Shown: positions 3,429 to 17,670 of the stretch, piece after piece
Layout: the number at the start of each line of letters is the position of its first letter
How positions within the stretch are numbered: position 1 is the stretch's first letter
Origin: Acidobacteriota bacterium
Lineage (GTDB): Bacteria; Actinomycetota; Acidimicrobiia; Spongiisociales; UBA11373
DNA: 37,121 nucleotides
Assembly (NCBI GenBank): GCA_022571885.1
Contig: JACZWZ010000008.1
Coordinates: 429-37,549, forward strand
Direction of reading: 5' to 3'
Translations under genes and position numbers: made by a program
The notes under the pieces: model-generated
The model's input: the letters and a program-made list of their open reading frames with translations, nothing else
Told to the model about the DNA's origin: nothing
Databases searched by the model: none

Positions 3429-4429
3429 CTTCCGTTACGATCGGCCGAGGCGTTCTCGAAGAAATCGCCGATGGGCCCGAAACGCTGATCGTGGTGCTTG
3501 CCCAGCCTGGCGCGGCGCAGGTGACGGCTCGGGTGGTGTCCGATCTCGAGGCGCGGACGATTCCGGTGGTGACGCGCATGCTTCCCGACGCCGAGGAGGC
3601 GAAGTCGTTCAAGGTCGTCGAGGAGACGACGGCATGGATGGGGGAAATCGGCGTGAAGCGGGACGGGATCGTGGTCGCCATCGGTGGAGGGGCCCTCACC
3701 GACATCGCCGGGTTCATCGCATCTGTGTACATGCGCGGCATCGAGGCCCGATACGTGCCTACGACTCTGCTCGGAGCAGTCGATGCTGCCATCGGTGGCA
3801 AGACGGCCCTCAACGTCGGCGGCAAGAACCTTGTCGGCACGTTTGCCCATCCCGATCGGGTGGTCATCGATGTGGACCTGCTCCAACAGTTGCCGGACGA
3901 ATTGCTGGCGGAGGGAATGGCGGAGGCTCTCAAGGCCGGTCTGATTGGCGATCCCGGGCTGGTGGATGTGATCGAGCGCTCCGGTCTCCACGCCGATCTC
4001 GAGGAAGTGGTCAAACGCGCAGTTGCGGTGAAGTTGGCCATCGTCGAGGCCGATTTCAGAGAGGCCGGGTCGCGAGCTCATCTCAACTTCGGGCACACCA
4101 TCGGGCACGCAGTCGAAGCCGTTGCCGGGTGGAGTCACGGACGGTCGGTAGCGGTCGGCATGGTGGCTGCGTCGGCCATCTCCCGGATGGTCTGCGGGTT
4201 CGACGGGGAGGAACGGATCGAGGCCATTATCGCGGCGTTGGGCCTGCCGGTGGCGTGTCCGGGGTTGAATCGGGCAGATCTCCATCGGCTGATGCGGATG
4301 GACAAGAAGAGCGACCCCGAGGGCCTGCGAATGGTGCTGTTGGAGGGGTTGGGCCGTCCTCTGGTGTCTCATATAGACCCGGCTACCCTCGACGCCGGCC
4401 TAGACGCGATCGGCATCGGAGACGAATGA
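3401..4429 (+). CDS. aroB: 3-dehydroquinate synthase
   Basis: Cyclises DAHP to 3-dehydroquinate, the second shikimate-pathway step, with NAD and a divalent metal. The Gly-rich NAD segment VVAIGGGALTDIAGFIAS is followed by PTTLLGAVDAAIGGKTALN, both typical. The metal ligands are the Glu in LAEGMAEALKAG and the His residues in LNFGHTIGHAVE and SHGRSVAVGM. The protein is 342 residues, slightly short for the family. The chosen ATG lies inside the end of aroK; the following VTSVTIGRGVLEEI matches the family N-terminus, so a later start would cut the fold. Its TGA overlaps the next ATG (ATGA). Confidence 0.96.
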   Translation: MDERIAAEVTSVTIGRGVLEEIADGPETLIVVLAQPGAAQVTARVVSDLEARTIPVVTRMLPDAEEAKSFKVVEETTAWMGEIGVKRDGIVVAIGGGALTDIAGFIASVYMRGIEARYVPTTLLGAVDAAIGGKTALNVGGKNLVGTFAHPDRVVIDVDLLQQLPDELLAEGMAEALKAGLIGDPGLVDVIERSGLHADLEEVVKRAVAVKLAIVEADFREAGSRAHLNFGHTIGHAVEAVAGWSHGRSVAVGMVAASAISRMVCGFDGEERIEAIIAALGLPVACPGLNRADLHRLMRMDKKSDPEGLRMVLLEGLGRPLVSHIDPATLDAGLDAIGIGDE

Positions 4430-15229: not shown

Positions 15230-15537
15230 CGGCTAGCGGCCGCGTGGGGGGTACCTGGTCTTCGTCTCCGTCGGGCCAACGCGTGTTGTGTGTCGTAGTG
15301 GCCTTTCACCGGGTGGTTGCGCCGGGTTGTGTAGCTACTCGATCATGCGTCTTGTGGGTCAGTTCGCCGAGTCGGTGTGCGTCAGATAGGCAGCGGGATT
15401 GCCGCGCGACTTGGTGAGTCTCCCCACCAATCGGGCTGCGGCCGATTGACTCCCCCCAGAGGGGAGAGTGATCCAACCAACCGTCGGGCACTACCCGCGA
15501 CAGGCCACCTCCCGGGTGGAGTGGTTCTCTCTTGCTA
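15230..15537. other. intergenic region with four consecutive hairpins
   Basis: No gene is supported in this stretch between the response regulator and the IS element. From 15411 to 15519 four short perfect hairpins follow one another: TTGGTG/CACCAA (15411-15430), AATCGG/CCGATT (15429-15447), CTCCCC/GGGGAG (15450-15466) and CCACC/GGTGG (15505-15519). One or more may terminate the upstream operon. No FMN riboswitch consensus was recognised, although ribD is the next chromosomal gene. Confidence 0.6.
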
Positions 15538-15545
15538 ATTGCTAA
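15538..15545. repeat. left copy of 8-bp target-site duplication
   Basis: ATTGCTAA directly abuts the left inverted end of the element and is repeated exactly at 17663-17670 after the right end. Eight-base duplications are the established size for the IS1595 family. Confidence 0.93.
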
Positions 15546-15570
15546 GGTGATTATATACTTGACAAACCCA
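15546..15570 (+). repeat. left terminal inverted repeat
   Basis: Begins GGTGATTATATAC and continues TTGACAAACCCA. It matches the reverse complement of 17638-17662 at 20 of 25 positions. It also contains the transposase -35 box. Confidence 0.92.
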
Positions 15571-15587
15571 TGATCTGAGGGTATGCT
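15559..15587 (+). promoter_or_regulatory. transposase promoter embedded in the left inverted repeat
   Basis: A perfect -35 TTGACA (15559-15564), a 17-bp spacer and a -10 TATGCT (15582-15587). The expected start of transcription is about 15594, exactly the transposase ATG, so the mRNA is probably leaderless. No Shine-Dalgarno is present, in keeping with this. Confidence 0.7.
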
Positions 15588-15593
15588 TCGGGT

Positions 15594-16529
15594 ATGGACT
15601 TGAACCTTGCGACACTTGCCCGACACTTCTCTGATGAGTCAGAGGCATGGAAACTCATCGAGACGATCCGCTGGCCTAACGGCCCTATCTGCCCGCACTG
15701 TGGGCACACCGAGAAGCACTACTTTCTGAAGCCGAAGTCAGGTCACCGCACTACCAAGGCAGGCAATCACTCCTATCGCCGCGTCTGGAAGTGCGCGTCG
15801 TGCCGTAAACAGTTCTCGGTCCTCGTCGGTTCGATCTTCGAGGGAACAAAGATTCCGATCTCAAAGTGGCTGCTCGCGATTCACATGATGTGTAGCGGAA
15901 AGAATGGGGTCGCCGCTCACGAGCTTCATCGTCAGCTCGGGATTACCTACAAATCTGCGTGGTTCCTCGCCCACCGCATCCGCTACGCAATGGCACGGTC
16001 GCCACTCGCAGACCGTCTCACCGGCACGATTGAGGCCGACGAGGCATATCTGGGCGGCAGGGGCAAGCGCCGCGGCCGTCCCGGTGCAGACTCACCCAAG
16101 ACCCCGGTGTTCTCCCTGGTGCAACGCGACGGGGAGGTTCGCTCAACTGTCGTCGCCAACGTCACCGGAGCCACACTCGGCCAGATCCTCAAGGAGAACG
16201 TCGATCCCTCAGCCACGCTTCACACCGACGAGTACGCCGTTTACAAGCAGCCCGGTCGAGGCTTCGCTGCTCACCAGACCGTGACACACAAGAAGGGCGA
16301 GTACGTCCGTGGTGACGTGACAACGAACCGGGTTGAGGGTTACTTCAGCCAATTGAAGAGAAGCATCGACGGCACACATCATCGGGTGAGCCGAGAGCAT
16401 CTTCACCGCTACTTGTCAGAGTTCGATTTCAGATACAACACCCGCAAGGTGACGGATGGGGAGCGCACTACCCGCATGATCCAGCAGAGTGCGGGCAAGC
16501 GACTTACCTACGAACGACCTAACGGATGA
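15594..16529 (+). CDS. IS1595-family (ISXO2-like) DDNK transposase
   Basis: The 311-residue protein has an N-terminal zinc ribbon (Cys33, Cys36, Cys67, Cys70 in CPHC and CASC) followed by a helical linker (SKWLLAIHMMCSGKNGVAAHELHRQLGITYKSAWFLAHRIR) that is standard in ISXO2-like transposases. The RNase H-like core contains Asp149 (IEADEAYLGG), Asp212 (LHTDEYAVY), Asn245 (TNRVEGYFSQLKR) and Lys255, the DDNK set that distinguishes this family from DDE transposases. It is full length with no internal stop, so likely active. It recognises the 25-bp ends and makes 8-bp target duplications, as found here. Confidence 0.96.
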   Translation: MDLNLATLARHFSDESEAWKLIETIRWPNGPICPHCGHTEKHYFLKPKSGHRTTKAGNHSYRRVWKCASCRKQFSVLVGSIFEGTKIPISKWLLAIHMMCSGKNGVAAHELHRQLGITYKSAWFLAHRIRYAMARSPLADRLTGTIEADEAYLGGRGKRRGRPGADSPKTPVFSLVQRDGEVRSTVVANVTGATLGQILKENVDPSATLHTDEYAVYKQPGRGFAAHQTVTHKKGEYVRGDVTTNRVEGYFSQLKRSIDGTHHRVSREHLHRYLSEFDFRYNTRKVTDGERTTRMIQQSAGKRLTYERPNG

Positions 16530-16576
16530 TCGCGACCGCAAGCAACGTGCTCGTTCTCGCAAGGGGTAACCGTGAT

Positions 16577-16609
16577 ACCATTGCGGTACTACAGCACTAC
16601 CGTCATGGT
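16577..16609. promoter_or_regulatory. 12-bp imperfect dyad, candidate protein-binding site
   Basis: ACCATTGCGGTA (16577-16588) and TACCGTCATGGT (16598-16609) form a dyad matching at 10 of 12 positions around a 9-base centre. The adjoining 11-mer CGTGATACCAT (16571-16581) occurs again in reverse orientation at 17271-17281, just upstream of the minus-strand passenger gene. This could be an operator, a transposase subsite or a hairpin; no protein is identified. Confidence 0.4.
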
Positions 16610-16700
16610 GCCGATGACAACACATAGTTTCGGGTTAGGGCCAGTCTCGGCTCGTCCAGCGGCCTAAGTTGGGGGGACCAAGACCGACCCGTCACCCGAG

Positions 16701-16769
16701 TGGAGATGGAGGGAGTTGAACCCTCGGGCTTCTGGGTGAACAGTCCTCAGCCCGCACCAAGCCATCCCC
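16701..16769 (-). ncRNA. tRNA-like structure of unknown kind inside the IS element
   Basis: Read on the minus strand, a 7-bp acceptor-like stem GGGGATG/CATCTCC (one G-T wobble) and a canonical 17-nt T arm (5-bp stem GAGGG/CCCTC, loop TTCAACT, 16709-16725) are followed by a discriminator-like A; CCA is not encoded. A TTGG stretch could serve as the D-loop GG. The middle is not a normal tRNA: only 37 nt precede the T arm, no proper D stem is seen, and the next helix is GGGCT/AGCCC with an 18-nt loop. The whole is 69 nt. This resembles the tRNA-like domain of tmRNA or a shrunken tRNA more than a decoding tRNA. Expression and function are unknown. Confidence 0.45.
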
Positions 16770-16774
16770 GGTCA

Positions 16775-16820
16775 GGAGAAGCCCGCCCGTATCTGTCGCA
16801 AGGTTCAGGCGGGTTTCTCC
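16775..16820. terminator. 13-bp hairpin downstream of the minus-strand passenger gene
   Basis: GGAGAAGCCCGCC (16775-16787) pairs with GGCGGGTTTCTCC (16808-16820) at 13 positions with one G-T wobble, around a 20-base loop. It begins 4 bases after the passenger gene stop on the minus strand. No T-run follows, as is usual for actinobacterial terminators. It also separates that gene from the tRNA-like element. Confidence 0.6.
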
Positions 16821-16824
16821 GCGT

Positions 16825-17262
16825 CTAATCCTTCTCCACCTTGCTCCTCCCCTTGTAGGTGATTACCCAACTCCCGCCACCGTGGTTCGTAACATTCCCC
16901 TGTTTGCGAAGATGATTGAGCGTCGCACTTATTACCGGTGCCTCGTCGTCTCGCCCGCGCTTTCGGAGCATGGCCGCCAGTGCCGCCGGTGAAGACGGCG
17001 TTGATAGCGTGGCCATAAGTGTTAGGAGGGCGATCGTGCGTCGCAACACGCGCCACTCAATTATGTCGGGCTGTGGCGTGGCACCAGTCGGAGCCGTTCC
17101 GTTATGCCGATGCATCGCCAGTTGGAGTCCGCGGATCTCGGTCGCCAAGCCCTCCATCCGCTCCTTGATCTCAATCAGGAACTTGTCGCTCTCGTCTTTC
17201 GCCGCTGCTAACCGTTGCTCAGCGTCCCGTAGCGCATCCTTCAGTGTGACTTCGTTGGTCAT
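16825..17262 (-). CDS. unknown passenger protein: coiled coil plus possible winged helix
   Basis: I do not recognise this 145-residue protein. Residues about 5-50 (LKDALRDAEQRLAAAKDESDKFLIEIKERMEGLATEIRGLQ) are charged and heptad-like, so a coiled coil is likely. Residues about 70-140 (IIEWRVLRRTIALLTLMATLSTP, then SPAALAAMLRKRGRDDEAPVISATLNHLRKQGNVTNHGGGSWVIT) look like a small DNA-binding winged helix with a beta hairpin at the end. The frame extends to 17301, but MTNEVTLKDA at 17262 is a more natural start. A possible promoter upstream is TTGCCG, 16 bp, TGATAC. A role as regulator or accessory of the IS is only a guess. Confidence 0.6.
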   Translation of the reverse strand: MTNEVTLKDALRDAEQRLAAAKDESDKFLIEIKERMEGLATEIRGLQLAMHRHNGTAPTGATPQPDIIEWRVLRRTIALLTLMATLSTPSSPAALAAMLRKRGRDDEAPVISATLNHLRKQGNVTNHGGGSWVITYKGRSKVEKD

Positions 17263-17364
17263 GGTTCGGCATGGTATCACGCCCTGAATGCTTCGCGGCA
17301 AAGTTTGGCTTTGCTTACACCGATGTGGTTCCTGGCAAGCCCTCGGATAGTACGCTGTGGACCT

Positions 17365-17523
17365 ATGCCAGACGAGAAACCCGTGGACCTCCCGAGCAAT
17401 TTCGAAGAAGTCCTAGCCGACCTACTCGCCACGCCCCCACCGCCGAAGGATGAGGATGTAGCCGACGAGGACGACAAGGAGAAACGGCGGCCCCCGGTTC
17501 AACCGACAAACGAAACCGGCTGA
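17365..17523 (+). CDS. small acidic unknown protein (52 residues)
   Basis: The product MPDEKPVDLPSNFEEVLADL and following residues are rich in Asp, Glu, Lys and Pro, with a PPPP run and no membrane segment; it would be disordered apart from one short helix. No family is recognised. The chosen ATG at 17365 lies 8 bases after TACGCT (17351-17356), a -10-like element in the same spacing as before the transposase, which would give a nearly leaderless mRNA. It is the last gene of the element. Coding status is uncertain because of its small size. Confidence 0.4.
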   Translation: MPDEKPVDLPSNFEEVLADLLATPPPPKDEDVADEDDKEKRRPPVQPTNETG

Positions 17524-17637
17524 GCCGGTGTGGGTGGAATCCATGGTGCTACCCATGATCTCCCCACCCCACGGTACTAACCGTGGTCGCGTCCTTTCGG
17601 CACCCGAGCCGCCGTCTCTATCCTATGCTCAAGCAAC

Positions 17638-17662
17638 TGGGTGCGTCAGGTATACAGTCACC
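17638..17662 (-). repeat. right terminal inverted repeat
   Basis: Read inward on the minus strand it begins GGTGACTGTATAC and continues CTGACGCACCCA, matching the left end at 20 of 25 positions. It is followed directly by the second ATTGCTAA. Confidence 0.92.
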
Positions 17663-17670
17663 ATTGCTAA
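17663..17670. repeat. right copy of 8-bp target-site duplication
   Basis: ATTGCTAA, identical to 15538-15545. Removing the element and one copy restores a target in which the heptamer TTGCTAA occurs twice in tandem. Confidence 0.93.

Follow-up and report, generated by a model that had tools for sequence, protein, structure and literature searches.

The window, a stretch of 37,121 nucleotides, holds at positions 15546-17662 a complete transposon of the IS1595 family in which a tRNA-like RNA and two small genes, here termed ORF A and ORF B, are carried as cargo. Overall, sequence comparison suggests that this element is probably best explained as an IS1595 transposon bearing ORF B together with a module, formed by ORF A and a mimic of alanine tRNA, that would act on translation. 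The anatomy of the element and the conservation of this module are the parts of that reading that we hold with high confidence.

The window element and its insertion site

The features of the element and its flanks are as follows, with the basis of each assignment in parentheses.

15290-15545, plus strand: host dispersed repeat of about 255 bp, outside the element (own-genome search)
15538-15545: left copy of the target-site duplication, ATTGCTAA (sequence, scripted search)
15546-17662, plus strand: complete IS1595-family element, 2117 bp (ends, duplication, similar ends of relatives)
15546-15569, plus strand: left terminal inverted repeat, GGTGATTATATACTTGACAAACCC (pairs with the right end at 19/24 positions)
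15559-15587, plus strand: promoter-like site TTGACA-17-TATGCT (10/12 consensus positions)
15594-16529, plus strand: IS1595-family transposase, 311 aa, zinc ribbon and DDE domain (Pfam, NCBI model)
16630-16699, minus strand: segment beside the tRNA-like RNA, of putative function (fold of 16630-16769)
16701-16769, minus strand: tRNA-like RNA, 69 nt including A73 (fold, pattern match, covariation)
16775-16820, minus strand: hairpin GGAGAAACCCGCC/GGCGGGCTTCTCC between the tRNA-like RNA and ORF A (folds)
16825-17262, minus strand: ORF A, 145 aa, N-terminal coiled coil and C-terminal winged helix (homologues, structure model)
17365-17523, plus strand: ORF B, 52 aa, acidic, with the motif FEEVLADLLATPPPP (iterated HMM)
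17639-17662, minus strand: right terminal inverted repeat, GGTGACTGTATACCTGACGCACCC as reverse complement (sequence, scripted search)
17663-17670: right copy of the target-site duplication, ATTGCTAA (sequence, scripted search)

The coordinates and length that an earlier note on this DNA had assigned to the element were recovered exactly, and independently of that note, by a script that required 24-bp ends of similar sequence flanked by an exact duplication of 8 bp and that ranked 15546-17662 first. The 8-bp duplication is exact, as claimed, with ATTGCTAA on both flanks, whereas the 25-bp ends described there proved to be matching but imperfect repeats of 24 bp, identical at 19 of 24 positions. 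Both ends start with GG (GGTGA...), as do those of most relatives, and the motif GG....TTGAC..ACC is an end sequence common to many of them. The relatives' ends align, in agreement with the expectation that several copies would place the ends at the same position.

The insertion lies in the A+T-rich, repetitive tail of a dispersed host repeat, which is present in about 40 sizeable copies in the same genome; of its 75 matches there, the first 40 lie mostly at 80-95% identity. Near copies of this repeat, a stretch of 25-75 bp often recurs in inverted, partial form. Because the target sequence is itself repetitive (TTGCTAATTGCTAA...), the duplication alone is weak evidence; the call gains weight from the ends, from relatives that share similar ends and 8-bp duplications, and from further copies of the host repeat, one of which (L015) continues uninterrupted through ...TTGCTAATCGCTAATTGCTAATTGC and provides an approximate empty site. 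A search of the genome of origin found the element as a single copy.

The transposase combines an N-terminal zinc ribbon (PF12760, 6.1e-15) with a DDE_Tnp_IS1595 domain (PF12762, 7.9e-41), and it scores 213.9 bits against the NCBI IS1595 model NF033547, for which the cut-off is 75. Together with the ends and the 8-bp duplication, these matches bear out the earlier assignment to a complete IS1595-family element. Two sources list as family traits the DDE_Tnp_IS1595 domain, an N-terminal zinc ribbon in all groups except IS1016, GG ends and 8-bp duplications (PMC8101967, PMC12561309), and the window element resembles the family in its transposase domains, its GG ends and its duplications. It differs from typical members, which usually contain a single transposase gene according to one source (PMC8101967), in that cargo makes up more than half of it; the transposase covers 936 of 2117 bp (44%), which agrees with the previous estimate of less than half. 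The element is probably autonomous. Its own DDE transposase would move it by acting on the 24-bp ends, and the promoter-like site, which starts within the left repeat immediately upstream of the transposase start and has a comparable layout in relatives, would serve that gene. A group II intron match within the element (19.3 bits against a cut-off of 49) was rejected as due to chance.

Relatives, their cargo and the conserved module

Relatives were sought through the transposase in 395 genomes of the class, 396 of the phylum and one Proteobacteria MAG. Convincing ends and duplications were found at 39 of the 63 transposase loci with room to seek ends, and these 39 complete relatives measure 1815-3911 bp, each exceeding a bare insertion sequence. 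Their cargo differs from element to element: L107 (G446:C661) carries a DUF433/DUF5615 pair that resembles toxin-antitoxin systems, along with a methylase-Mrr domain fusion, L060 includes an aspartyl protease, L109 carries an SDH-type protease, and L064 a possible HNH protein. A detectable tRNA-like RNA is absent from 32 of the 39, and most relatives have equally good ends without the RNA and ORF A, with other cargo instead. The earlier proposal that the cargo all travels together therefore holds for the window element, where the tRNA-like RNA and both small genes do lie inside the ends, and fails for the family, in which copies lacking that cargo are the majority. IS1595 members with passenger genes are known; the transposon belongs to a known family, and variable passengers are not new there. 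Viral contigs yielded only one distant transposase relative, without a tRNA-like RNA.

Both small genes are real, as the earlier note had supposed, since each has homologues. An iterated profile seeded with four sequences detected the ORF B family, whose motif approximates (F/P)EEALRxLLxVPP; at least 20 of the 39 elements contain a member at E below 1e-4, and the true number is probably higher. Pfam returned no match for ORF B, which may be the one cargo gene that belongs to the element's own machinery. ORF A, in turn, was found by profile search in 10 of 375 genomes, namely its own, which also contains a paralogue, and nine others of the class; viral contigs and plasmids contained no homologues. 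The structural model of ORF A (pLDDT 82.5, mostly above 90 in the winged helix) begins with an N-terminal helix of 50 residues, and Foldseek matched it to many winged-helix DNA binders with weak E-values. A search for a defence role found no support. PADLOC returned nothing for the window ORF A, and only its L060 homologue reached a profile of AbiEi-type winged-helix antitoxins, at E 0.004.

The association of ORF A with the RNA recurs. In the window element, L060, L076 and L013, ORF A is followed by hairpins and then by an RNA of alanine type, and the order of transposase (forward), RNA and ORF A (both reverse) and ORF B (forward) is common to the window element and L060, which comes from another family of the class and whose transposase is 52% identical. 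The pair is found in two other elements as well, so the RNA and ORF A make up a conserved mobile module, and their association is not accidental. The two are nevertheless separable, since no ORF A was recognised in L064 and L107, which have an alanine-type RNA; in L168 an ORF A homologue is present and the RNA is absent. The L013 copy (G000:C146, 1239-1923), from the genome of the window element itself, is an orphan consisting of ORF A, hairpins and alanine-type RNA with no transposase, around which an IS1595-like boundary was sought and not found. Like the window element, this orphan adjoins the dispersed host repeat. Distant homologues of ORF A from several families (L170, L171, L174 and L010) stand head to head with an ordinary tRNA-Arg(CCT) gene, a neighbourhood that suggests a chromosomal ancestor beside a tRNA gene. 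Distant homologues at L172/L009 are likewise near tRNA-Lys.

Structure and identity of the tRNA-like RNAs

The window RNA is composed of a 7-bp acceptor stem with a G3:U70 pair, a 5-bp T stem with a TTCAACT loop, and a single central hairpin. It has neither a canonical D arm nor a canonical anticodon arm with its 7-nt loop, and it was not called by ARAGORN; likewise, the window element gave no match to RF00005. The folding energy of the RNA alone is unremarkable (z about -1), and no promoter-like site was found for it. Its structure is supported by the strict acceptor and T-arm pattern, for which 0.001 matches are expected per shuffled element, and by the covariation described below, so that the tRNA-like structure proposed earlier can be regarded as real.

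Seven of the 39 elements (the window element, L026, L060, L064, L076, L107 and L124) contain a tRNA-like RNA within their ends, where the strict-match chance expectation was 0.05 for 27 elements; the L076 RNA was scored by a search whose criteria were relaxed once the ORF A of that element had drawn attention to the site. The RNAs of the window element, L060, L064, L076 and L107, together with that of the orphan L013, are of alanine type (G3:U70 and A73 in 6/6). The L107 RNA forms a nearly complete cloverleaf whose anticodon is UGG; in the other five, a canonical D arm and anticodon arm are lacking. Over the acceptor and T stem, 98.6% of cells in the six RNAs are paired (100% in the five used for the covariance model), 7 of the 12 pairs are changed on both sides, and the covariation score was reached by 0/500 shuffles; the central hairpin is poorly conserved. 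An alanine-signature scan of the 39 elements found five, against 0.01 expected, and over all loci collected by then it otherwise returned only canonical tRNA-Ala. When applied to 158 genomes, the covariance model scored its five seeds at 57-68 bits and everything else at 48.5 or less, the next matches being tRNA-Ala, tRNA-Lys and an unusual tRNA of Ala identity whose anticodon is CCU. When viral and genome collections were scanned with an exact pattern, there was no match; this pattern, derived from only two copies, was too strict. As a control, 97 kb of IS256 elements of the class contained one canonical tRNA and zero tRNA mimics.

These data also bear on the possibility that the RNAs are dead fragments of host tRNA-Ala captured by chance from other integrations. 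Two of the six RNAs have the acceptor of their host's tRNA-Ala: the window RNA (GGGGATG/CATCTCC) and the L064 RNA are each identical in this stem to the tRNA-Ala(UGC) of their own genome. A tRNA-Ala 3' remnant of the kind required is moreover present at L004. Compensatory changes in both stems, an invariant G3:U70, the same neighbouring gene at four loci and the same order in two elements all argue against chance capture, which we regard as very improbable. At L004 (1503-1580), a tRNA-Ala(GGC) gene is represented by its 3' part, joined to a 5' part of foreign origin, and the sequence looks like an integration remnant.

A further reading, only slightly less improbable, takes the RNA for a truncated tmRNA that lacks the message part and, as a bare tRNA-like domain, competes in ribosome rescue. 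The best Rfam match of the window RNA is tmRNA (RF00023), and the RNA shares with the tRNA-like domain of tmRNA its alanine identity and the absence of a D stem; its topology is also similar in that a single arm replaces the anticodon arm. The match is non-specific, since ordinary tRNA-Ala genes score 35-40 bits on the same model, equal to or better than the 34.6 bits of the window RNA, and the host already has a full tmRNA. Membership was rejected; the score is below the cut-off of 47 bits, and the 69-nt RNA has no message domain and no pseudoknots.

The remaining two RNAs are class II tRNAs, with anticodon CCA (Trp) and A73 rather than the usual G73 in L026, and with anticodon GAA (Phe) and G73 in L124/L063; their build points to serine identity. 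Canonical tRNAs near the transposases of relatives (L121, L122 and L145) were never within defined element ends, a contrast that is suggestive only, because two of these three loci have no defined ends. Outside this transposon set, L212 (G558:C29, 901-971) contains a tRNA-like gene with G3:U70, A73 and anticodon CCU adjoining an excisionase-like gene; here a tRNA of Ala identity bearing a foreign anticodon occurs in a mobile context of a second kind. In L064, the alanine-type RNA (3669-3738, minus strand; 2764-2832 of the reverse complement) holds an ATG in the frame of the transposase, and folding and translation may consequently be mutually exclusive there.

Predicted function and relation to known systems

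Alanine and serine are the tRNA identities that are read independently of the anticodon, and AlaRS charges minihelices made of the acceptor and T arm. The G3-U70 pair is the chief AlaRS determinant in all domains (PMC6451123). This pair and A73, as noted above, are present in every alanine-type RNA. Since AlaRS relies on G3-U70 and charges minihelices, alanylation is the expected fate of the RNA: host tRNA enzymes would trim its 5' and 3' ends, after which, judging from established AlaRS recognition, the host AlaRS would quite probably charge it with alanine. Without an anticodon arm and the other parts needed for decoding, the charged RNA would not be expected to read codons. Such a non-decoding Ala-RNA would occupy AlaRS, EF-Tu or the ribosome and would thereby give the element a handle on host translation, serving its maintenance or the regulation of its own genes, while ORF A would control transcription of the RNA. 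We favour this action of the RNA on translation, under regulation by ORF A, but only tentatively.

The position of the RNA, 3' of ORF A and behind hairpins in the window element, L013, L060 and L076, could instead reflect a processing signal, whereby excision of the structure by RNase P and the 3' tRNA nucleases would define where the ORF A transcript ends and the RNA would have no other task. The in-frame ATG within the L064 structure fits a variant in which the start of the transposase message is cut or occluded. A processing signal would not need G3:U70, yet the pair is present with A73 in all six RNAs, which points to AlaRS, and the L107 RNA is not downstream of ORF A; we therefore consider this explanation unlikely.

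A comparably low probability attaches to the proposal that the elements carry mistranslating tRNAs, similar to allo-tRNAs and combining Ser or Ala identity with foreign anticodons, as an addiction or attack factor, the window RNA being a reduced relative. This would accommodate the class II tRNAs of L026 and L124/L063, the Ala-identity RNA of L107 with its UGG anticodon and the L212 gene beside its excisionase-like neighbour, and it fits the established anticodon-independent reading of alanine and serine identities; the RNAs of the window element, L013, L060, L064 and L076, however, have no canonical anticodon arm and should not mistranslate. Allo-tRNAs do resemble the RNAs described here, in that Ser or Ala (G3:U70) identity is uncoupled from the anticodon. 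A review describes a 12-bp acceptor branch of 8/4 or 9/3 with odd anticodons, and one allo-tRNA that overlaps a transposon-related frame, and it records a link to transposable elements as a hypothesis only (PMC7609411). The window RNA and its relatives differ from allo-tRNAs in their 7+5 branch, and the window RNA also in lacking canonical D and anticodon arms. AlaRS minihelix substrates and the tRNA-like structures of plant viruses share with the window RNA an acceptor and T-arm unit, which in the window lies 3' of a coding region; we regard this as a functional analogy and claim no relationship.

A literature search for insertion sequences with tRNA-like cargo found nothing relevant, the original papers on the family (Siguier 2009) and on allo-tRNAs (Mukai 2017) lying outside it, and within this scope a recurring alanine-tRNA mimic with a partner protein was not found described as IS1595 cargo. 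The earlier suggestion of an undescribed mobile system thus needs to be divided: the mobility is that of an ordinary IS1595 element, while the cargo appears to be undescribed, and its RNA may prove to be a new RNA family. Returning to the non-decoding Ala-RNA, it is quite possible, though still somewhat doubtful, that this IS1595 set is a vehicle for a new family of non-decoding, alanine-charged tRNA mimics with a DNA-binding protein as partner, with sister elements that carry anticodon-mismatched Ser or Ala tRNAs. If that is true, mobile elements repeatedly recruit the two tRNA identities that are read without the anticodon. The purpose of odd bacterial tRNAs of Ala or Ser identity has so far been unexplained, with the link to transposable elements a hint only; the presence of such RNAs in complete transposons whose ends are defined, with a conserved protein as partner of one kind, provides a concrete, clonable system in which to address that question.
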